Assembly: GCF_003966655.1 (NCBI RefSeq)
Contig: NZ_AP018795.1
Coordinates: forward strand, 124,001 to 188,000
Length of the DNA: 64,000 nucleotides
Origin: Acidithiobacillus ferridurans
GTDB taxonomy: Bacteria; Pseudomonadota; Gammaproteobacteria; Acidithiobacillales; Acidithiobacillaceae
Reading direction: 5' to 3'
The notes beneath the pieces were generated by a model that saw only the letters and a list, made by a program, of their open reading frames with translations, searched no databases and was not told the origin of the DNA. This document shows positions 9,995 to 59,890 of the stretch, piece after piece (position 1 is the first letter of the stretch; every line of letters begins with the position of its first letter). Made by a program: the position numbers and the translations under genes.

Positions 9995-10937
9995 AGTAGT
10001 TGTATTAATTAGACTGTTCTCCCTTGAAAGAGAACCTGGTGTTCGTCCACCAGTGCCCACCGGCACATGCGACCAAGGGGTAACCCTATCGTGTGAAGCT
10101 GTCGGAGAAGTACCCGCGGGAAACCGTAGGCCGAGCCGCGAGGTGAAGCTCACACTGCCAGTCCAAGGCGGTAAGGGGCGAGGGCAAGGACGGTATGGTC
10201 AACGCAAGTGAACTGCTGATAAACGTCGTTATTCCCAACAAGCCAAAAGGACTGAGTATGGGAACGAGGCTTGAACCAAAAGGTAAGGTGAGTTGGTGAT
10301 GAAGGGTCATTTGTCCTCATCCGACGATAAACACTCCCCGGCGAATAGGTAGGACCCAACCCGTCCGTATGTCACTTATGCGGAACATGGTAATCCCGTA
10401 GCCCCGCCCAGAATATCGGGCAAAGCCGACCGCAAGGAAGGCTCATGAGGATGCGGGTATAGGATGGGGGAAAACGCGAACGCCGTTCTGTAATGGAACG
10501 GATACGGGGTGCAACATTCCTCGACGCGAAAGCGGGCAGACTTCCCCTTGGTCTCTCATCACGAGAACTTTTAGAACCTCTCAAGGAGGGAATGGCAAAT
10601 GAACGCAAGAACATCGGCGTGTGCGCCCTCTCACGGCGTGGACTGGCACGGTACCAATTGGTCCCAGGCCACGAAACAAGTGCGGAGGCTGCAAGCGCGT
10701 ATCGTGAAGGCAACGCAGGAAGGCCGATGGGGCAAGGTGAATTCCTTGCAACACCTGCTGACCCACTCGTATAGCGGCAAGGTATTAGCCGTGCAGCGGG
10801 TGACTTCCAATCAAGGCAAAAACACGCCTGGGGTGGACGGGGCAACCTGGTCCTCTCCGGCAGACAAAGCGCAGGCCGTGTTGTCACTTCGGCGGCGGGG
10901 ATATCAACCCCAACCGCTCAAACGGGTGTACATCCCC
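9995..10937 (+). mobile_element. group II intron 5' fragment
   Basis: A gene-poor stretch with the texture of a group II intron ribozyme (many GAAA/GTAAG-type purine tracts and local hairpins) leads into the start of an intron-encoded protein at 10599. The 5' edge is placed near the zwf break; the exact GTGYG boundary was not resolved. The intron is antisense to zwf. Its 3' half, including domains V and VI, is gone, because the element at 10938 cuts into the protein gene. Confidence 0.65.
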
Positions 10938-10955
10938 TGTTACGTCCCGCAATAA
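10599..10955 (+). pseudogene. group II intron reverse transcriptase/maturase, N-terminal fragment
   Basis: Preceded by an AAGGAGG ribosome site. The first about 113 residues match the start of LtrA-type intron-encoded proteins, with VRRLQARIVKATQEGRWGK and then NQGKNTPGVDG of RT domain 0-1. Homology stops after RVYIP, exactly where the inverted-repeat arm begins at 10938; the last few residues are read from the arm. All catalytic RT blocks are missing, so it is dead. Confidence 0.85.
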
Positions 10956-11080
10956 ATTAGGTGCCTTGTCCCGAGCTATTTGAGGTCGAAACGACGGGGT
11001 TATCCCACGGTCTTTCGGCAAGAACACGCACCCGGAGAAGCGCGGGACAGCGATGGCTATCCCGCGCGGGATGGTTACCG

Positions 11081-11284
11081 TCAGAAGGGCTCTTTCTGCG
11101 CTTGAGGGGGACAGTGCCGGTAATGGCTTATTTGTCGCCCATAACGGCTTTCAATCAGGCTGGACAATGCCGTGACGAACTGACTCAGGGCTGCCGCCGC
11201 TTCATCGGAGAGATTCTGCGGGAACAGTAGCGCCCAGTCCTCCAGCAGCGCCTCTGCCTCATCCATTTCTTCATAGGCTTTCAT
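11081..11284 (-). CDS. small ORF of the transposon (left copy)
   Basis: A 67-residue acidic protein of unknown function. Its start overlaps the stop of the ATPase gene (ATGA), and the frame is kept in the other arm, which argues that it is a real third gene of this transposon family. It ends in QKEPF in both copies; the left copy has HCPP where the right has HHPPP. Confidence 0.6.
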   Translation of the reverse strand: MKAYEEMDEAEALLEDWALLFPQNLSDEAAAALSQFVTALSSLIESRYGRQISHYRHCPPQAQKEPF

Positions 11285-12081
11285 CGCAACGCCTCGATAG
11301 CCGCCTGCAGCAGATCATCCGGCAGATGGTTGAGTCCCTTGGGTACGGCCAGGCGCAGAGCAGTATGGAGGATGTTGCCAGCCTGTCGGGGAAATCCTTT
11401 GGACGCCTGCCGGAGAAGCTCCAGTCCGGAGTCGGATAACATCGTGTGCTGGCTTCCGGCGGACTTCAGGGCATGGGTGATGAGGGCAGTAAAACGTTCC
11501 CGTTCAAGGACGGGTGCCAGGCGGATGCGTACCTGGATACGGCTGGCCAGGGCGGCATAGGGCACCCGGTCCAGAGTTTGGGCCAGATGAGGATGTCCCG
11601 CCAGCCAGACGGTGAGCATGCTCCGGGAATCGAAGGCGAAGTTCAGGAAGGCCGGGAAGTCCCGGAAGAATTCCGGCGGCAGGTTCTGCGCCTCGTCGAT
11701 GACCCAGACGGGGAGGACCTGCTTGTGGTCCATCAGGTCATGGATATGCTCCTTGATGTCCTTCCAGAGCTGGGCGCGGCGGTAACTGGGTTCGACCCCC
11801 AGACTCCGGGCCAGCCCGCGGTAGATGTCGATCCGTCCGAAGTCCGTATCCGCCTGGTAGATCACCAGATAACGGTGCGGATTCAACGACGCGGTGAGAC
11901 TGCGCAGGGCCGTGGTCTTGCCCACCCCGGGCTCACCGATCAGCAAGCCCACTCCAGGAGACTGCAGAAGCCACTGGAAGCGCTCCCGCAAAGGCGCCAG
12001 GGCACCATCATCCCAGAGTTCCGCCGTATCCTTGTCCAGAGGCAGGCGGGTAAAGCCGAAGTGCTGGAGGACCTGGCTCAT
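11281..12081 (-). CDS. AAA ATPase of transposon, ExeA/TniB-like (left copy)
   Basis: A 266-residue P-loop ATPase with Walker A GEPGVGKT (about residues 49-56), Walker B VWVIDEAQN (about residues 146-154) and a C-terminal helical lid. Proteins of this ExeA/TniB type assist DDE transposases in target capture. The start overlaps the transposase stop. Both copies in the window are intact, so the ATPase may still be made although the transposase is truncated. Confidence 0.85.
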   Translation of the reverse strand: MSQVLQHFGFTRLPLDKDTAELWDDGALAPLRERFQWLLQSPGVGLLIGEPGVGKTTALRSLTASLNPHRYLVIYQADTDFGRIDIYRGLARSLGVEPSYRRAQLWKDIKEHIHDLMDHKQVLPVWVIDEAQNLPPEFFRDFPAFLNFAFDSRSMLTVWLAGHPHLAQTLDRVPYAALASRIQVRIRLAPVLERERFTALITHALKSAGSQHTMLSDSGLELLRQASKGFPRQAGNILHTALRLAVPKGLNHLPDDLLQAAIEALR

Positions 12082-12740
12082 TGCTCATCCTCCCCGTAAT
12101 ACTTCTTATGGGCGATTTCCACGAGGCTGGTCGAATCGGCAGGCTCTTCCACGACCGTATCGGCTGCACCCGGCTGATGGCGCTTGCGGTGGGCATTGGC
12201 TTCCCGGTCCAGGGGCGTGGCCCGGCCCAGATCTTCTCCTGCGGCGCTTTCTACAGACACCACCCGGCCGGCATGGGCGTCGACCACGAGAGTGACGGTC
12301 TTGCCTACCAGCGCATAGGGGACTTCGAAGAACTGACCCAGATAAGAGACGGTCCCATCCTTGCGCACCCGACGGGCCTCGCGGTGATAAAACAGCGCAT
12401 CGAGGTGGGCCGCCTGGGTGCCGAGGCTGCGGATCCGGGGCAGATCCTGCTGGTAGCGGAACAAGGGCGTCAGCCCCTCCAGCCCCCCATGGGGCCGCTG
12501 GTGGTAGACCTGCTCCAGCCAGGCCCAGAGCCGCGCATTGAGATCGTCCAGATCGCGGATCCGGCGCGTGTCCAGTTCGGTCAGAAACTGATCGCGGAAG
12601 GTCCGGTGCCAGCGCTCGATCTTCCCTTTGGATTCTGGGGTATAAGGGCGACAGTAGATCAGTGATATCCCCAACCGGGCACAAATCCCTTGCAGGGAGC
12701 CCGAGCGATAGGCGGCCCCGTTATCCACCACCAGTTTATA
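12078..12740 (-). pseudogene. DDE (rve) transposase, C-terminal half (left copy)
   Basis: Begins abruptly at YKLVVDNGAAY, which holds the second catalytic Asp. The catalytic Glu follows in SKGKIERWH, about 35 residues on, and then the Mu/IS481-type C-terminal domain. The N-terminal half with the DNA-binding region and first Asp is absent, because the gene is cut at 12740/12741 by the end of the recombinase element. The first possible start is a GTG at 12731. It should be inactive. Confidence 0.85.
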
Positions 12741-12871
12741 GGGTAATCAGCAGGACCAAATAATGTTAAGGAATGCCTGGAATACCAAGGGCCGTCTTAA
12801 TTTGGTCAGAATTTCCTGCACATAATTTTGGAGGTGTCATCCTTGACTTCCGTCAACCAAGGAGGCACATC

Positions 12872-13156
12872 ATGTCATCTGATCAATCATGTAATGAATC
12901 GTTACTTTTACTATTCGACGTCCACCTGAGAACCGAAGGCTATGCGCAAAAGAACAGCCGCGTATACATTGCTCAAGCGCGACGCTTTCTTGAGTACCTT
13001 GCAAAGCACAACATCGCCGTCGCCGATACGGAACTGACGGACGTTTCGCGATATTTGCGCAATGAACGGCAGCGCTATCGTCGCAATCATGGGCATCTAC
13101 CGAAATCAGGCTATATAGCCTGGGAAGCGCACAGGCTAGTAGTCTACACACGCTGA
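12872..13156 (+). pseudogene. tyrosine recombinase N-terminal fragment (RitA-like)
   Basis: Starts after a good AAGGAGG site. The 94 residues look like the N-terminal SAM-like, DNA-binding part of a phage-integrase-family recombinase (VYIAQARRFLEYLAKHN). No catalytic domain follows: the frame stops at 13154-13156, overlapping the next start by one base. The catalytic half appears to have been deleted. Confidence 0.6.
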
Positions 13157-14214
13157 TGCGAGTCATCCGTGGTCAGTGGCCACCAACTGCTGTTCCGTCA
13201 ACACCGACCGAAGTATTCCAACAACAGATTTGCCAAGGGTACGCGCAGTGTCTGATCACTGACCGCGGACTGGCTATGGAGACCATTGCTGGCCGTCGTA
13301 ATGAAGGAGAGCGATTCCTAAGATGGCTTGGTGAGCGTGGCGGTTCAGTCAGAATGCTGGACCTTACCTGTGAGCTTGTCGATGCGTATGTGACCTTCCG
13401 TGCATCGACATTGAGTCGGCGAAGCAGGAAATTGATGGCCTGCCAGCTACGCTCCTTCCTGTGTTATCTATATTCGAACGGGCGAATCACGCGCGACCTT
13501 GCACGGCTTGTCATTGCGCCGAAGCTGTACGCGTTGGAGACCATTCCTTCAGCATTCCGCGATGAAGAAGTGCGCGCCATTATCGAAGCGGCACGCCAGG
13601 ATCGCTCTCCCAAAGGATTGCGCGACTACGCCATTCTCCTTTTACTCGATACCTACGGCCTGCGAGATTTGGAAGTTGTGCGTCTGCAACTTGAGGATGT
13701 GGATTGGCGTACGGACAGGCTGTATATCCGACGATCTAAGACCGGCAGCGAATCAATCCTGCCGTTGCTAAGCACCGTGGGAGAAGCAATCTTGGCTTAC
13801 TTACGCAATGGCCGTCCCAAGACATCCGGGCGCGAAATATTCATTCGCACACTTGCACCCTATCATCGTCTATCTTCGCTCTACCAGATGATCCAGGGCC
13901 GTCTCGCGCAGGCCAACATTCGTCCAGCAGGCAAACATGGTGCCCATGCATTTCGTCACGCCAGAGCAATAAGCTTGCTTCGCGCCAATGTTTCTCTAAA
14001 GCAGATCGGAGATATTTTGGTCCACCATACTCTGCCCACTTTGGCCCGAGACCGTCGAATTGCTCAAGGCATTACTCAAGCGCCAACCACGAGCCAATAC
14101 GGAACCGATTTTTACCAATCGATATGGCGAGCCGCTGGGCGCGTCGGGCTTCCGTTACAAGCTTGCCCAATACGTCGCTGCTGCCACCAAGCAAACTCCT
14201 TCACTCAACAGTAA
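13156..14214 (+). pseudogene. tyrosine recombinase (RitB-like) fused out of frame to RitC remains
   Basis: Residues 1 to about 290 form a recombinase with an N-terminal core-binding domain and a catalytic domain. A YGLRDLEVVRLQ stretch stands where the Arg-I motif should be, and an HAFRHARA box is present. Homology is lost after QIGDILVHHT (near 14030), where the frame runs into sequence that encodes RitC in another frame. The C-terminal tyrosine segment is therefore missing and a deletion has joined two genes. Probably inactive. Confidence 0.65.
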
Positions 14215-14458
14215 AAAGGTTACACCACATCGTTTTCGGCACGCGATGGCTGTCCATTTGATCGCCGCTGGGGTTGACGTGACTGTGATTCGTAGCTGGC
14301 TCGGGCATGCGAGCTTGGATACGACCAATCATTATGCTCAAGCGAACATGGAAACCAAGCGGAAAGCACTTGAAGCAGTCGATACCATCGTTCGACAAGA
14401 GAAATCACCAAGTTGGAGGAAAAATGCCGACATATTGACTTGGCTCGATTCACTTTGA
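14036..14458 (+). pseudogene. tyrosine recombinase C-terminal part (RitC-like)
   Basis: Open from about 14036 (PLWPETVELLKALL), with the first usable start a TTG at 14060. It holds the catalytic box HRFRHAMAVHL, the LGHASLDTTNHYAQ segment with the nucleophile Tyr, and a normal C-terminal tail. The N-terminal half and first catalytic Arg are gone. In intact RIT elements this would be the third recombinase. Confidence 0.65.
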
Positions 14459-14553
14459 GGCATCGAAATAATCACGAGGAAATCCTGGTCCCAATAATGC
14501 TACGCTTGGGCGTCCCGGGTTTCCTTAACATTATTTGGTCCTGCTGATTACCC

Positions 14554-15216
14554 TATAAACTGGTGGTGGATAACGGGGCCGCCTATCGCTCGGGCTCCCT
14601 GCAAGGGATTTGTGCCCGGTTGGGGATATCACTGATCTACTGTCGCCCTTATACCCCAGAATCCAAAGGGAAGATCGAGCGCTGGCACCGGACCTTCCGC
14701 GATCAGTTTCTGACCGAACTGGACACGCGCCGGATCCGCGATCTGGACGATCTCAATGCGCGGCTCTGGGCCTGGCTGGAGCAGGTCTACCACCAGCGGC
14801 CCCATGGGGGGCTGGAGGGGCTGACGCCCTTGTTCCGCTACCAGCAGGATCTGCCCCGGATCCGCAGCCTCGGCACCCAGGCGGCCCACCTCGATGCGCT
14901 GTTTTATCACCGCGAGGCCCGTCGGGTGCGCAAGGATGGGACCGTCTCTTATCTGGGTCAGTTCTTCGAAGTCCCCTATGCGCTGGTAGGCAAGACCGTC
15001 ACTCTCGTGGTCGACGCCCATGCCGGCCGGGTGGTGTCTGTAGAAAGCGCCGCAGGAGAAGATCTGGGCCGGGCCACGCCCCTGGACCGGGAAGCCAATG
15101 TCCACCGCAAGCGCCATCAGCCGGGTGCAGCCGATACGGCCGTGGAAGAGCCTGCCGATTCGACCAGCCTCGTGGAAATCGCCCATAAGAAGTATTACGG
15201 GGAGGATGAGCAATGA
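14554..15216 (+). pseudogene. DDE (rve) transposase, C-terminal half (right copy)
   Basis: The same truncated transposase as on the left arm, cut at the identical YKLVVDNG position. It differs from the left copy by two residues (DREANV for DREANA, DTAVEE for DTVVEE). The second Asp and catalytic Glu are kept; the first Asp and DNA-binding part are missing. Confidence 0.85.
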
Positions 15217-16013
15217 GCCAGGTCCTCCAGCACTTCGGCTTTACCCGCCTGCCTCTGGACAAGGATACGGCGGAACTCTGGGATGATGGTGCCCTGGCGC
15301 CTTTGCGGGAGCGCTTCCAGTGGCTTCTGCAGTCTCCTGGAGTGGGCTTGCTGATCGGTGAGCCCGGGGTGGGCAAGACCACGGCCCTGCGCAGTCTCAC
15401 CGCGTCGTTGAATCCGCACCGTTATCTGGTGATCTACCAGGCGGATACGGACTTCGGACGGATCGACATCTACCGCGGGCTGGCCCGGAGTCTGGGGGTC
15501 GAACCCAGTTACCGCCGCGCCCAGCTCTGGAAGGACATCAAGGAGCATATCCATGACCTGATGGACCACAAACAGGTCCTCCCAGTCTGGATCATCGACG
15601 AGGCGCAGAACCTGCCGCCGGAATTCTTTCGGGACTTCCCGGCCTTCCTGAACTTCGCCTTCGATTCCCGGAGCATGCTCACCGTCTGGCTGGCGGGACA
15701 TCCTCATCTGGCCCAAACCCTGGACCGGGTGCCCTATGCCGCCCTGGCCAGCCGTATCCAGGTACGCATCCGCCTGGCACCCGTCCTTGAACGGGAACGT
15801 TTTACTGCCCTCATCACCCATGCCCTGAAGTCCGCCGGATGCCAGCACACGTTGTTATCCGACTCTGGACTGGAACTCCTCCGACAAGCGTCCAAAGGAT
15901 TTCCCCGACAGGCTGGCAACATTCTCCATACCGCTCTGCGCCTGGCCGTACCCAAGGGACTCAACCATCTGCCGGATGATCTGCTGCAGGCGGCTATCGA
16001 GGCGTTGCGATGA
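15213..16013 (+). CDS. AAA ATPase of transposon, ExeA/TniB-like (right copy)
   Basis: A 266-residue partner ATPase, intact, with GEPGVGKT and VWIIDEAQN Walker motifs. It differs from the left copy at a few positions (V/I in Walker B, SQHTM/CQHTL near residue 215). The start overlaps the transposase stop (ATGA) and the stop overlaps the next start. Confidence 0.85.
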   Translation: MSQVLQHFGFTRLPLDKDTAELWDDGALAPLRERFQWLLQSPGVGLLIGEPGVGKTTALRSLTASLNPHRYLVIYQADTDFGRIDIYRGLARSLGVEPSYRRAQLWKDIKEHIHDLMDHKQVLPVWIIDEAQNLPPEFFRDFPAFLNFAFDSRSMLTVWLAGHPHLAQTLDRVPYAALASRIQVRIRLAPVLERERFTALITHALKSAGCQHTLLSDSGLELLRQASKGFPRQAGNILHTALRLAVPKGLNHLPDDLLQAAIEALR

Positions 16014-16216
16014 AAGCCTATGAAGAAATGGATGAGGCAGAGGCGCTGCTGGAGGACTGGGCGCTACTGTTCCCGCAGAATCTCTCCGATGAAGCGGCGG
16101 CAGCCCTGAGTCAGTTCGTCACGGCATTGTCCAGCCTGATTGAAAGCCGTTATGGGCGACAAATAAGCCACTACCGGCACCACCCTCCCCCTCAAGCGCA
16201 GAAAGAGCCCTTCTGA
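16010..16216 (+). CDS. small ORF of the transposon (right copy)
   Basis: A 68-residue copy of the small acidic protein found on the left arm, one residue longer through a 3-base insertion near its end. Function is unknown; the conserved coupling to the ATPase gene suggests an accessory role in transposition. Confidence 0.6.
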   Translation: MKAYEEMDEAEALLEDWALLFPQNLSDEAAAALSQFVTALSSLIESRYGRQISHYRHHPPPQAQKEPF

Positions 16217-16359
16217 CGGTAACCATCCCGCGCGGGATAGCCATCGCTGTCCCGCGCTTCTCCGGGTGCGTGTTCTTGCCGAAAGACCGTGGGATAACCC
16301 CGTCGTTTCGACCTCAAATAGCTCGGGACAAGGCACCTAATTTATTGCGGGACGTAACA

Positions 16360-16615
16360 GCTACCCCAGTGATGACAGCCTTCCCCGTATATGTGGCGGG
16401 TCGGCTTCCGCATTACGCTTTTCGAGGCCTGCTCAGTGTTCACTCACGTTGCAACCTGCATACTTACCAAGCCACTTTTCATGGCCCTCTACACCGGAGG
16501 CTTCAGCCGCTTCGTTACCTCCACGACTGCCCCGATTGCTACCGGCTGGAGCGACAGTTACCGGGCGGGATTCACACCCGCTGAAAGACCGTTCCTTTGC
16601 ACGGCGCACACATAA
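16360..16615. other. unassigned sequence between transposon arm and inverted-repeat element
   Basis: About 256 bases with no gene I can support. The stretch near 16560-16585 has a small GC-rich inverted repeat (GCGGG and CCCGC around ATTCACA). It does not continue the group II intron found outside the left arm. Its origin is unknown. Confidence 0.35.
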
Positions 16616-17069
16616 GCAGCGTTATGTATACCTCGCGATTATGTATAGCGGTACAGCTGAGAGCCTTGCTGCGACGGGGTTGTAAGGACGAACCTTGCTC
16701 GCGAGCTCTACATAATAAACGCTGTTTTGGAGACTTCAGCAAGATGACTGCCTACCGGCGGTGCCGAATATTGCTGTCAGGCTTCCGGAACAGAAGGAGT
16801 GCTAGGATTCACAGGCAACCACCTTCCCGAGCAGTAAGTTAATGGTGATCCAAAGATCTCCGATCAGCATCGTGGCCATGGATCAGACCGGCAGTTGGGG
16901 TGTTGATCTGTGGCGCATGTGGAGCCCTGTCGTGGTGACTACACACCGAATCGACCAATTTTATGTATAGCATCTCGATACCGCTCCTACCAAATGGCCA
17001 GCATTGACAGGGCTTACAGCCAGCTCGACATGCGCACTATACATAATCACATAGTATACATAACGCTGC
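16616..17069. repeat. 454-bp gene-free element with 33-bp inverted ends
   Basis: Left end 16616-16648 and right end 17037-17069 are inverted copies. Each has GCAGCGTTATGTATAC, a 5-base variable spacer, then GATTATGTATAG, so 28 of 33 positions match. Two more copies of the core motif lie inside (TTATGTATAG at 16961-16970; CTACATAA at 16708-16715). There is no open frame of note. It could be a MITE-like element or a recombinase/transposase recognition region; no clear target duplication is seen. Confidence 0.6.
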
Positions 17070-17157
17070 ATACCGACCATTGGTGATGCCCGCCAGCATG
17101 AGAGCTCGGATGAACCGCACACAGAAGCCGTGGGTCGTCGGAGTCTCTTGTTTTCAC

Positions 17158-55434: not shown

Positions 55435-56780
55435 TTCCGACTCCCCCAATCTGAATAAGGTAAACCGACCGCCATTTCCAGCGCTGCCTGCTGGGCAGCG
55501 TAGGATTCCTGTAGCGCCAGCAATTGCAGGCGCTTCGCCAGGGATTGGCTGCGTACGGTCTCATAATCCAGCAAAGTCACGTTGTGTTCCGCAGCGGCCC
55601 TACGTAATCGGTTTTCGGCCTTCGCCAGTTCCGGAACCTGTTGCTGCAGGGGCTTGATTTCCTGTGCCAGGCGGCGGAGATCCGTCACCAGTCGAAAAAT
55701 GTCGGCGCGCGTCTGAAACAGACGGGCGGTATAGGCTGCCCGGAGCTGCGCGCGGGTAGCCTCGCTTTCCGCAATAACCCCACGGTTCCGGTTCCAGAGG
55801 GGAATATCCAGCGTCAAACTTGGGCCGTAGCTTTGCACATTGGAGGTATCGGCGGCCCTATTGAAGCCAATGGTGAAGCCTGGGTATTGGCCGAGAATGG
55901 CACGTCGTACCCGGGCTTCCTGCGCCTGATAGCCAGCCCGCAGCGCCAGCAGATCAAGCCGATGCTTGTCGGCCAAGGTTACCAGAAACGCGGCATCGGG
56001 CAGGCTGGGCCAAAGCCGCGGGGGCGTTATGCTGATCGCCATTTTCGGTGGCAGGCCAATGGATTGGTCGAGATTCTGGCGCAGGGTGGTGACCTGTCGA
56101 CGCAAGGCGAGCGCCCGATCCTGACTATCCAGCCAAGCAATCTGCCGTAATGTTGCGGTGGTGATGGTGGTGTCGCCAAGACGTAAATTTTCAGCGGAGG
56201 CTCGATACAATTTCCCGGTGGTCTTGGCTGCCGCTTCCGCTACCTCTTCCTGCGCCCGCAGATAATAAAGCTGACGGGCGAGAACGCGCGTATTACCCGC
56301 TTGCATCCACTCCTGCCAGGCGACCTGATATTGCACGGACTTTTGCTGTGCGTGGGCAATATCCAGATTGGCAGAGCGGGTAAACAGACTGGCGAGGCTC
56401 CAACTCAAACCCATGCTATAGGCATTGTAATAACCGGCTGCGACATTAGTGGGCAAGTCCGCACTGAGTGACAGTTGGGGATCGGGAAGCAAACCGGCCG
56501 CAAAAACCTGGGCCTGGGCGACTCCCAGATTGGCCCGCATGGCACGCAACTGTGGGTTGAGCAACACGGCGATCGCCCCAAGATCCTCGCCAGAAAATGG
56601 CCCATGCAAATTTATCGGCTGGGCATGGGGGTGCATCCGCGCCAGCGCCGCTGCCATTTCCCGATGCACATCCTGCACAGAGGATAGATGTCCAGGCAAG
56701 GGTGCTGCCTGATAACTCGCACATCCGGCCGGCAGTAACATCAGGCTGACCAGGATTGCAGGCCATAATCGAAATGCCAT
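55431..56780 (-). CDS. TolC-family outer-membrane efflux lipoprotein
   Basis: A 449-residue outer-membrane factor with a lipobox (LPAGC, Cys20) and two OEP repeats with long helices. First gene of the tripartite operon (channel-adaptor-pump), the order seen in czcCBA/cus-type clusters. Confidence 0.88.
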   Translation of the reverse strand: MAFRLWPAILVSLMLLPAGCASYQAAPLPGHLSSVQDVHREMAAALARMHPHAQPINLHGPFSGEDLGAIAVLLNPQLRAMRANLGVAQAQVFAAGLLPDPQLSLSADLPTNVAAGYYNAYSMGLSWSLASLFTRSANLDIAHAQQKSVQYQVAWQEWMQAGNTRVLARQLYYLRAQEEVAEAAAKTTGKLYRASAENLRLGDTTITTATLRQIAWLDSQDRALALRRQVTTLRQNLDQSIGLPPKMAISITPPRLWPSLPDAAFLVTLADKHRLDLLALRAGYQAQEARVRRAILGQYPGFTIGFNRAADTSNVQSYGPSLTLDIPLWNRNRGVIAESEATRAQLRAAYTARLFQTRADIFRLVTDLRRLAQEIKPLQQQVPELAKAENRLRRAAAEHNVTLLDYETVRSQSLAKRLQLLALQESYAAQQAALEMAVGLPYSDWGSRK

Positions 56781-56935
56781 AAACCCTATGCTCCCTGAAG
56801 GGTGAAAACCCGTGATGGAATGGGCATATTACTTACCCCTCCATCAGTGTCTCATGATTGAATTAGGCGAAACTTAGGATATCGCCCCAACCCGCGCACG
56901 ACATCCCGTCCCGCTGGATCTTTCCTACCCGGCCT

Positions 56936-57035
56936 ATGGATAAAGATCGTCCACTATTTGGCGGAGAATTACCGTCAAATCTACGGGTTCGAAGCTCGAT
57001 GAGGAGGTACCCTGCAGAGTCGCCAAACCCGTGCA
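56936..57035 (-). pseudogene. remnant of a histidine-kinase gene
   Basis: About 100 bases resemble 48130-48230 inside the kinase gene at 47737-49044 (both start ATGGATAAAGATC on the plus strand), at roughly three-quarters identity. Nothing else of the kinase is left. It lies in a 745-base region (56781-57526) without an intact gene. Confidence 0.5.
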
Positions 57036-57112
57036 TCATCCATGAGCGGGTTGATAAACATATGCGGCATGCGCCTCGCCAACATAAACAAAAATCTTGT
57101 GATTACTGGGAC

Positions 57113-57307
57113 CTATTTGATATGCTGGGACATCACTTCGGCCGATGTTCGAAAACCAAAAAATTTCATGGTCTCATGGGAAATCCGCTGGTTGGAAGCC
57201 TCTGCCTCCGAGTGCTCCATGCACAAACTCCCCGCCATCTGTTCCGGTGACCACGCTTGCTCCAGGATCATGGTCCGCACGGTCTCTGTCAAGAGACTCC
57301 CCGGCAA
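57113..57307 (-). pseudogene. IS30-family transposase remnant
   Basis: A 64-residue stretch with LTETVRTMILEQAWSPEQMAG and QRISHETM, the pattern of the middle of IS30-type transposases. The catalytic DDE part is missing and no insertion-sequence ends were found. Confidence 0.6.
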
Positions 57308-57526
57308 CCAGATAGACTCGCTGCCTCCTAAATGGGATTCTCACGCAATAATCAAGAGCATGAAGTAAAACACGTAGTCTTTGTCGAGAGTGGATGAACC
57401 GGCAACAGCCCAAAAGGCATTAGAGAAGAATAACCATACGGTGGATCTTCTGAAAAATATCGGCAGAAAAGCCCCAGACACAACACGCTGGAACCTTCCT
57501 GCCGGAAATCACCAATAACGGCGGGC

Positions 57527-59890
57527 CTAGAAGTCTGCCGCAATACTTCCATATACCGTCAGCGGCGCGCCGGGCAATGCCAGCATCTGCCCGGCCGAGT
57601 TCCCACCCAGAAGCCCACCGGCGGTGATGTACTGGAACTCGTTATAACGATTATTGGCAAGATTGAGGACATCGACGCTCAGCTTGACGTCTTTCAAACC
57701 CGGAATACTCCCACGCGTGGGGATGGTGCTGTCAAAACCCAGATTCACCGTCCCATAACCCGGCATTTTCTGCCGGCTCGGGGCAGTCGTATTGTTATTG
57801 AAGATATTTTGTGCGCCGGTGTACTGATACCAGATCCGCGGCTCCAGCAACACGCCCGAGAGATAGTAGCTGTACGCCGTGCCGATATTAAAGGTGCTGC
57901 TCGGCACGTTGGATACCGGCAGCCCGTTATAACTGACGCCGCCGGTTACGTAATGGGCGAAAGTCGCCTTCTCGAAATTGAGGTTGGCAAAGACGTGCAG
58001 GTTGTAAATCGGGTCATCTTCCAATGCCATATTGACCCCCTGATAGATGGAGTCACCATTCGCGTCCCCTAGATAATTGCCGTTGGCATCGTAGAACGGA
58101 ATATATTGGTTGGTATAGTGCAGATGGTAAAAACTCGCCAGCAGGAAGAAATTATGCAGGTAAGCGGCATCCCTGAAATGAATCTTTATGCCAGCATTGT
58201 AATCGGCGCTTTTTTCCAGGCTATAAATCGGTGGGGTAGCTTGATACAGACCACCACCACCGCCCACCTGCGGTTCCTTGAACGCCTGCGCATAGCTGGC
58301 AAATACCGCCAGCCATTTCATCGGCTGCCAGTTGAAATCCACCGAGGGCTCTACCTTGGTGAAGCTGTTGCTGGCGGTCGGGAGCGCGCCCTGGTTATTT
58401 TGCGGATACAGGGCATAGGCCGCGGCAAAATCCGACTGCGCGGCAGGCGTGTAACGCGTCTGATAATTGATGAAACGCACGCCCGGCGTGATATGCAGGT
58501 TCTTCATCGGACTGATCCGGTCCTGGATGAACGCGGCAAGGTCGGTCTGGTCGAAATAGTCGCTGCGATAGTGCGCGTTGGGCACAGACACCGAGCCGTA
58601 ATACGGCGGGTTGGTATTGTAAAAGGCATTCCGCGAGTTATACCGGCTATTCAGGAAGAATCCACCTACGTTCACATCGTTGTAGGGCAACGCCACCGAA
58701 AACCAGAGTTTGTCGCCATACACATTGGTATGGGGGTTATTGTATTCGTACAGATTACCCGGATTGGACAGCCCGTAGTTGTTGTAGTGGAAATGCAGAC
58801 GGTGGCCATTGCGGTACCAGAGCGTGTTATGCAGACCCACCATGCTGTCCAGGGCGAGGTTCAGTTTGCTATAGACCAGCCAGGTGCTGTTGCTGTCCTG
58901 TTTGAACCAGACGTTTTCCGGCAGTGAGGAATAATATCCTGACGTCGCCTGGCTATACAGCGGCGAGTTTGGCGTACCATCCATGGTCACACCGGCAATG
59001 GGGTTGAGGGGGATGGATACCGGCCGGTAGCCGGAACCTTTTGCCAGGTAGGCACCCAGTGAGAAGTCACCGTTGCTGAAGGTCTTGCGGGTTTTCAGGA
59101 ACCAGGCGTAGTTATAACTGGGGTTGGTAAAACCATCCGGAGATTGCCGATAGCTGTTGCCGGAACCGGAACCACCCGCGAGGATGGTGGACCAGCCGTC
59201 TATGCTCCCGGTGCGCACGTTGAAGACGATATTCTTGGTATCGTAGCTGCCGTAGCTCATCTTGATCGAAGCACCGGCTTTACTGGTGGGCTGCAGGGGG
59301 ACAAAATCGATCTGGCCGCCGATGTTGTTATACCAGCGATCCACCGGGTTTCCGGGACCATAGGTGATGCCGATACCCTGCAGAATGCCGTTCTGCGGCA
59401 CCTGTGGGCTCTCCCAGAGGCCACTGGACGGATTCACCATGGGAACGCCGTCAAAGGTGACGGAAAGGCTGCCGTTGTCAATCTGGCCACCGGAGAAACC
59501 GCCCCAACCCTGCTTGATCCCGTTCACGCTGATAGAGGTCTTGGTGGAGCCGGTATATCCGTAGCCGGAAACACCGACGCCCGGCGCATAGGACAACGCC
59601 TGTGCGCTGCCGCCCATCGGACCTGCCGCCGCCAACTCATGCTTATCCAGCACTTTTATAGACTGTCCTGAATCAAAACGGGTTTTTTGACTAAGAGATT
59701 GCGCCTCACGGCTCCCCAGGGTAGAAGTCCCCTGCGCTGCGGCATTGACCTGACCCACATCGACCGAGCTGTTTTCGGCGCTTTGGGTACTGGCGGTGAT
59801 GCCGTCGGCCATGACTGGCACGCTCGAAAGCAGCACTCCAGATGCCATGAGCGCAACGACGACCGGACGTAACTTCATGTTGCTACGCAT
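57527..59890 (-). CDS. TonB-dependent outer-membrane receptor
   Basis: A 787-residue receptor with signal peptide (to about residue 28), an N-terminal extension, a plug domain (about 75-210; SISVNGIKQGWGG, VTFDGVPM) and a 22-strand barrel ending in the terminal Phe (IAADF). The ATG at 59890 follows GGGAG. Ligand not evident; metal-chelate or siderophore uptake is usual for the family. Confidence 0.88.
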   Translation of the reverse strand: MRSNMKLRPVVVALMASGVLLSSVPVMADGITASTQSAENSSVDVGQVNAAAQGTSTLGSREAQSLSQKTRFDSGQSIKVLDKHELAAAGPMGGSAQALSYAPGVGVSGYGYTGSTKTSISVNGIKQGWGGFSGGQIDNGSLSVTFDGVPMVNPSSGLWESPQVPQNGILQGIGITYGPGNPVDRWYNNIGGQIDFVPLQPTSKAGASIKMSYGSYDTKNIVFNVRTGSIDGWSTILAGGSGSGNSYRQSPDGFTNPSYNYAWFLKTRKTFSNGDFSLGAYLAKGSGYRPVSIPLNPIAGVTMDGTPNSPLYSQATSGYYSSLPENVWFKQDSNSTWLVYSKLNLALDSMVGLHNTLWYRNGHRLHFHYNNYGLSNPGNLYEYNNPHTNVYGDKLWFSVALPYNDVNVGGFFLNSRYNSRNAFYNTNPPYYGSVSVPNAHYRSDYFDQTDLAAFIQDRISPMKNLHITPGVRFINYQTRYTPAAQSDFAAAYALYPQNNQGALPTASNSFTKVEPSVDFNWQPMKWLAVFASYAQAFKEPQVGGGGGLYQATPPIYSLEKSADYNAGIKIHFRDAAYLHNFFLLASFYHLHYTNQYIPFYDANGNYLGDANGDSIYQGVNMALEDDPIYNLHVFANLNFEKATFAHYVTGGVSYNGLPVSNVPSSTFNIGTAYSYYLSGVLLEPRIWYQYTGAQNIFNNNTTAPSRQKMPGYGTVNLGFDSTIPTRGSIPGLKDVKLSVDVLNLANNRYNEFQYITAGGLLGGNSAGQMLALPGAPLTVYGSIAADF

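Follow-up and report, generated by a model that had tools for sequence, protein, structure and literature searches.

Comparison with relatives identifies a segment of the window (the 64,000 nucleotides analysed, bases 124001-188000 of the single contig of 2,921,399 bases that made up the genome searched) as a decayed RIT (recombinase in trio, normally with three recombinase genes) at its specific target, placed 18 nt upstream of the codon that would encode the second catalytic Asp of its host transposon, named T here. The remnant lies between two 3' halves of T. We think it probable, with real room for doubt, that this 3'/3' form arose as one of the products when RITs inserted in opposite orientations underwent an exchange, accompanied by decay through deletion.

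Structure of the RIT remnant

The matching ends noted on both sides of the element are present, with GGGTAATCAGCAGGACC at 12741-12757 and its complement at 14537-14553. Their inverted similarity, initially put at about 90 bases, reaches 77-88 bases inward (~78% over 77 bases), the outermost 30 bases being identical, or 33 when the adjoining CCC is counted; the terminal inverted repeats that characterize a RIT are therefore seen in the remnant. Because relatives place the element end at TAATC, the remnant is delimited as 12744-14550, and the CCCTAT and ATAGGG at its junctions are assigned to the target since an intact copy of T elsewhere in the genome (L006) has the same 6 bases. The features of the remnant and its junctions are as follows.

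12744..14550, plus strand, RIT element remnant with borders TAATC...GATTA; 1807 bases against the usual ~3.4-3.8 kb
12744..12820, plus strand, left terminal inverted repeat of the remnant; 78% match with the right end over 77 bases
14474..14550, minus strand, right terminal inverted repeat of the remnant; pairs with the left end (78% over 77 bases)
12872..13153, plus strand, N-terminal part of ritA, closed by a frameshift (2 extra bases near 13115 relative to L016)
13156..14029, plus strand, remainder of ritA (open), C-terminus missing; 89% amino acid identity with L016
14030..14458, plus strand, C-terminal part of ritC, fused to ritA; 14030-14100 collinear with L016 4858-4928
12738..12743, minus strand, left 6-base target stretch, CCCTAT on the minus strand (ATAGGG); bases also in the intact copy L006
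14551..14556, plus strand, right 6-base target stretch, CCCTAT; bases also in the intact copy L006

The closest relative, L016, is a contig of a Nitrosomonadales metagenome-assembled genome which carries ritA, a ritB in two pieces owing to a frameshift, and a ritC truncated where the contig stops. The proposed relationship to RITs is upheld by the 92% DNA identity of the remnant to this contig over 1285 bases (12742-14026), followed by 96% over 14030-14100. The Phage_integrase profile (PF00589) matched 13156-14211 (E 6e-19) and 14060-14455 (E 4e-16), and Phage_int_SAM_4 matched the N-terminal part of ritA (12872-13153) with an E of 0.0067, under the family cut-off. The description of three degenerate recombinases did not hold: only a frameshifted, truncated ritA and the 3' end of ritC are left, and ritB is absent. 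The ritA sequence breaks off at ~14026 and continues in ritC at ~14030, and positions 2819-4857 of L016, comprising ritB and parts of both neighbours, have no counterpart in the window. As judged from this alignment, a deletion of ~2 kb joined ritA to the 3' end of ritC, with loss of ritB and the 5' part of ritC. The remnant hence lacks the three adjacent tyrosine recombinase genes of a RIT but derives from an element that had them, and its length of 1807 bases falls short of the ~3.5 kb of a RIT because of the same deletion. The window RIT is probably incapable of moving by itself, since ritB and parts of ritA and ritC are deleted and none of its recombinase genes is complete. A frozen arrangement, as suggested originally, is plausible, the remnant being the only RitA match in the genome to E 1e-15.

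RitA matches were few elsewhere: at E 1e-40, 2 of 398 genomes of the phylum had one (the own genome counted), and at 1e-35, 7 of 397 genomes of the order. No RIT relatives were found in viral contigs, nor at the DNA level in the 16 other genomes of the genus. The search for intact relatives, on which the original prediction had staked its borders and target, succeeded in part: the ends and the target codon of the window element recur on the 5' side of L016 and on the 3' sides of L017 and L020. The ends common to these three elements support the inverted ends as the real element borders. L016 interrupts the same transposase type at the same codons as the window (KRGLP-V), L017 (from an Accumulibacter metagenome-assembled genome) is adjoined by the 3' half of a DDE transposase beginning ALMTDNG, and L020 (on Paraburkholderia pBN2) has an IS21-like transposase 3' half on each side, which in both cases begins immediately ahead of LVPDN.

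The two arms of T and its intact copy

The sequences on both sides of the remnant are parts of T.

10938..12743, minus strand, left arm, 3' half of T: tnpA 3' part 12078-12743, AAA ATPase 11281-12081, small ORF 11081-11284, T right end
14551..16359, plus strand, right arm, 3' half of T: tnpA 3' part 14551-15216, ATPase 15213-16013, small ORF 16010-16216, T right end

The ATPase of each arm is a 266-aa AAA ATPase. As predicted, the two transposase genes are broken at the same place, each tnpA part opening with the codons for YKLVVDNG, and the exact insertion point is confirmed by an intact 446-aa TnpA elsewhere in the genome, which reads KRGAPYKLVVDNG across the break (uncut frame KRGAP-YKLVVDNG). 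The intact T extends over 3332 bp (L006 3533-6864), is bordered on both sides by the 5-bp repeat CATGT and encodes a DDE transposase (rve, E 5e-14) and a helper ATPase (AAA_22, E 1e-25), as a Tn6049-like transposon does. The best NCBIfam match of the transposase is IS481, with 207 bits under a cut-off of 224. The closest plasmid relative of T is on a plasmid of A. caldus, and a relative on a Cupriavidus plasmid shows 61% amino acid identity. In T, the Asp of YKLVVDNG and the Glu that lies 35 residues further on form a D-35-E pair.

The flanks are not the two halves of one gene: both are outward-facing 3' halves, and there is no 5' half, a layout that the original prediction left unexplained. 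The inverted repeat is real; it does not end at the element, its mirror image extending through the arms of T. The 3' part of the intact T is 95% like the arms, the left arm included at 95%, and the arms are 98-99% alike, differing by 19 substitutions and one 3-base gap (2 of the substitutions touch the gap), with the 550 bases nearest the RIT identical between them. The outer ends of the arms adjoin different 5-mers (TCCCC and GCTAC) and have no 5-bp repeat in common. A RIT insertion in one gene followed by simple decay was ruled out since both flanks are 3' halves, and movement of the mirror-image unit as one double-ended transposon was ruled out since the outer ends share no 5-bp repeat.

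Debris of other mobile elements lies beside both arms.

10599..10937, plus strand, N-terminus of a group II intron reverse transcriptase (RVT_N E 9e-33, TIGR04416 E 2e-9)
16613..17072, plus strand, second, shorter RIT-like remnant with another end type and 36-base inverted ends

The reverse transcriptase N-terminus is cut by the outer end (T right end) of the left arm. The remainder of this gene, sought in the genome with PF00078, was not found (2 matches, both under the cut-off). The second remnant lies ~250 bases beyond the right T end, and its 40 left-end bases are identical to the left end of the L053 RIT of another genome of the genus.

A target position rule for RITs with GATTA/GATAA ends

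The insertion point in T was compared with 23 direct junctions (21 distinct), listed from RITs with GATTA/GATAA ends; L022, L034, L035, L049, L053r, L067, L071r, L072a and L084-L086 were omitted because their ends or polarity differ. The target frame is open through the first 21 codons in all 23, and at 19 of them codon 7, exactly 18 nt in, encodes Asp. Both sides of the window remnant, L017 and both sides of L020 have this in-frame Asp codon exactly 18 nt after GATTA. The targets comprise a second Asp motif of the T type, the second and the first Asp motifs of IS21, IS110 (KND..DAEAI), ArdC-like genes and strawberry-notch genes, named from the record annotation where present and otherwise from the likeness of the translation. 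The Asp residues at the IS21 and IS110 sites are presumably the catalytic ones; the ArdC-like and strawberry-notch targets are non-transposase genes. Asp is missing at all three strawberry-notch junctions and at one ArdC-like gene, which has Glu instead; these make up the four exceptions. Many of the 23 junctions are related to each other, so that they represent ~6 kinds of site, 5 of which obey the Asp rule. In L066 (G556), the RIT lies ahead of AQVDWGE, which is the first of the Asp motifs in an IS21-like transposase.

RITs with other ends strike elsewhere, as in G006, where a related transposase is hit at its PYSPY motif, and by our reading RITs of other end types also enter tyrosine recombinase genes. 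The Asp position rule is confined to the GATTA/GATAA end type because other end types strike other positions.

Palindromes and side types

In their usual form, RITs with GATTA/GATAA ends have a direct junction to the target 3' half on one side, and on the other a palindrome of ~20 bases, with 6 bases on each of its flanks, followed by the target 5' half. With other end types the palindrome can adjoin the 3' half (G006). Palindromes of 32 bases were scored against random windows, of which 0.6% reach at least 12 of 16, 6% at least 10 and 21% at least 9. The best score at the window RIT is 6 of 16 on both sides, where half of the random windows reach 8, so that it has no palindrome; this is expected, because it would be a 3'/3' product.

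Among 33 RIT elements, classed partly by eye, 26 have a palindrome on one side and three on both (L031, L074, L077); three, namely the window RIT, L020 and L080, have none and lie between two 3' halves, and L034 is a 5'/3' form without palindrome. A bare cut of 10 of 16, applied to 27 elements, gives 17 one-sided, 6 two-sided and 4 without palindrome. From this cut, L022, L065 and L066r were reclassed from two palindromes to one, since on their second side the target gene follows at once, and L071r, whose best score is 9, was counted as having one palindrome rather than none on account of its core; the palindrome side scores only 10-11 in L021, L027, L028, L030, L065, L075, L077 and L079. The 33 elements are these 27 plus L079, L080, the first RIT of L082, L084, L085 and L086. 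Left out were L050r, L051 and L052r as copies or near copies of L049 and, as their two-sided borders were unfixed or unclassed, L016, L017, L029, L033, L054, L055, L064, L068, L069, L070, L076, L078 and L083. L033, outside the count, appears 5'/5' between two recombinase genes. Both junctions of L080 are direct in the 23-junction alignment. In L021 (4104 and 7903), the 6 bases separating palindrome and RIT end do not match the 6-mer of the target found at its two outer junctions, as though these inner 6-mers were carried over from an earlier insertion site.

Origin of the 3'/3' form

The proposed exchange would start from two copies of T, each carrying a RIT, in opposite orientations. Both would read 5' half, palindrome, RIT and 3' half, but the RIT of one would be reversed relative to that of the other. 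A crossover within the two RITs, most simply by homologous recombination, would then yield two products, the first uniting both 5' halves and both palindromes, the second uniting both 3' halves and lacking any palindrome. The window would retain the 3'/3' product, and the 5'/5' product would be gone from this genome; the ~2-kb deletion of ritB and parts of ritA and ritC could have occurred before or after the exchange. Such an exchange between two T copies carrying RITs explains the different DNA beyond the T ends, the two 3' halves and the lack of a palindrome, and arms without a common 5-bp repeat are as expected if they stem from two T insertions. The 5'/5' reciprocal product was sought in the genome and not found, the genome having one gene-bearing RIT, and no 5' half of T was found there beyond the intact copy. 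Since neither the remainder of the reverse transcriptase nor a second T 5' half was found, we infer that the reciprocal product was lost or was never in this replicon.

Counting against the exchange are the near-identical arms, with identical 550 bases beside the RIT, which would also result from an inverted duplication. Here, a single normal RIT would have stood in one T, and a template switch of replication at the RIT inverted ends, which are inverted repeats suited to it, would have mirrored the 3' half with loss of the 5' half. The 98-99% likeness of the arms agrees with this, but on both sides the mirror image breaks off precisely at the right end of T, past which the two sequences differ, the outer T ends lack a common 5-bp repeat, and the same form occurs in L020 and L080 with different genes on the two sides. 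For these two elements duplication is excluded, because the inverted sides of L020 are only ~70% alike over 622 aligned bases, ~80 of which are RIT end, and the flanks of L080 are different IS110 genes. For the window we regard a duplication as unlikely.

Exchange between two RIT copies is favored by other replicons in which copies occur in the required arrangement. In G006, a genus-mate, three RITs (L049, L050, L051) are identical over 3412-3414 bp and lie within copies of the same transposon at the PYSPY motif of its transposase, that of L049 being reversed relative to the transposon compared with L050 and L051; these opposite orientations show that the precondition of the exchange exists. 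Plasmid pO132a of Agrobacterium cucumeris carries three RITs that are 100% identical over 3815-3816 bp and represent three forms: L081 (the same as L077) is 5'/5' with two palindromes, L079 is normal and L080 is 3'/3'. The right 3' half of L080 and the left 5' half of L081 are taken as halves of one kind of IS110 gene, because they match the same three other records at abutting coordinates, respectively 98536-99320 and 99320-99666 in a Pelagibacterium record, 57030-57814 and 56683-57030 in a Nitratireductor record, and 143557-144340 and 144340-144684 in Agrobacterium NZ_CP092894. The two halves are ~51 kb apart on pO132a (136594 and 187715), each adjoining a RIT, and the RITs are in the same orientation, as would be expected had a circle integrated by way of homologous RITs. 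Against a simple account, the IS110 gene in L079 shares 99.9% identity with the left 3' half of L080, and the right 5' half of L081, which has other best matches, does not appear to be the partner of that left half, so that pO132a needs at least one further step.

A plasmid of 11188 bp, Salipiger pTPRO8 (L082), has two oppositely oriented RITs that encode the same recombinase proteins, each lying within an IS110 gene. It would be a natural substrate for the proposed exchange.

The RIT recombinases themselves could have swapped one end of an inserted RIT with a second T target, for which two RIT copies are unneeded. The palindrome is nearly symmetric, so that either side could be the crossover site, and the fixed position and the 6-base junction stretches point to site-specific chemistry. 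However, such a swap predicts a RIT-less 5'-palindrome-5' product, which lies outside the reach of searches started from RIT genes, whereas the three 5'/5' forms found have a RIT and two palindromes; we consider this origin quite improbable. That two unrelated deletions or insertions left two 3' halves against the RIT by chance, in a region which does carry other mobile-element debris, is hardly credible, given that the two sides meet an intact RIT border at one and the same base, with base-exact symmetry, and that the form recurs in L020 and L080.

Significance and comparison with known systems

Taken more broadly, the comparison leads to a tentative proposal, about which our doubts slightly outweigh our confidence: RITs of the GATTA/GATAA type would attach, in frame and with the Asp codon 18 nt on, at DNA encoding a conserved Asp motif, often the catalytic one of a transposase, and thereby disarm several unrelated transposon families at the active site, and oppositely oriented copies would serve as mobile stretches of homology by which replicons are fused or inverted, with diagnostic 3'/3' and 5'/5' scars like that of the window as the trace. 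The base-exact target rule offers a ready basis for an assay of RIT target specificity, and the scars a means of recognizing, in finished genomes, where RITs have driven replicon fusions and inversions. Neither the position rule nor the products of the exchange turned up in the open-access literature searched, nor did any paper that brings RITs together with a palindrome, IS110 and the insertion site. The target position rule may be partly known already. The available part of PMC3414803 mentions an inverted repeat with an overlapping palindromic sequence and, within that part, nothing further on the palindrome, Rit recombinase subgroups are described in the accessible text of PMC8138268, and that of PMC10214605 counts both the target specificity and the movement of RITs among the points still to be tested.

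T is the host of the RIT and not part of it, and both arms lack the N-terminal half of TnpA. Like IS481/IS21-like transposons with a helper ATPase, T combines a DDE transposase with an AAA ATPase, and a 5-bp repeat surrounds its intact copy. Its label as Tn6049-like is provisional and follows PMC3414803.

Several tyrosine recombinases, a fixed target and 6 bp of flank at the junction are points on which RITs can be set beside the strand-biased circularizing elements (in the accessible part of PMC10214605), and GInts (PMC5385486, likewise in part) resemble RITs in having several tyrosine recombinases and a fixed target; unlike RITs, both have four conserved genes as described in these parts. 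RITs inside transposase genes, radC and IS66 are already published (accessible parts of PMC3414803 and PMC2864759), and the RITs of Cupriavidus and others reported there have ritA-ritB-ritC, inverted ends and insertion in a transposase gene in common with the relative of the window element. A. ferrooxidans RITs occur in the transposase gene of a Tn6049-related transposon (PMC3414803, same part), and these and the window RIT share a related transposase type and apparently the genus. The G006 RITs, taken as the A. ferrooxidans ones, differ from the window RIT by a RitA identity of 38%, other ends and a PYSPY site further along the transposase. Compared with the Cupriavidus-type RITs as published in the parts cited, the window RIT stands out by having no ritB and by being set between two 3' halves.
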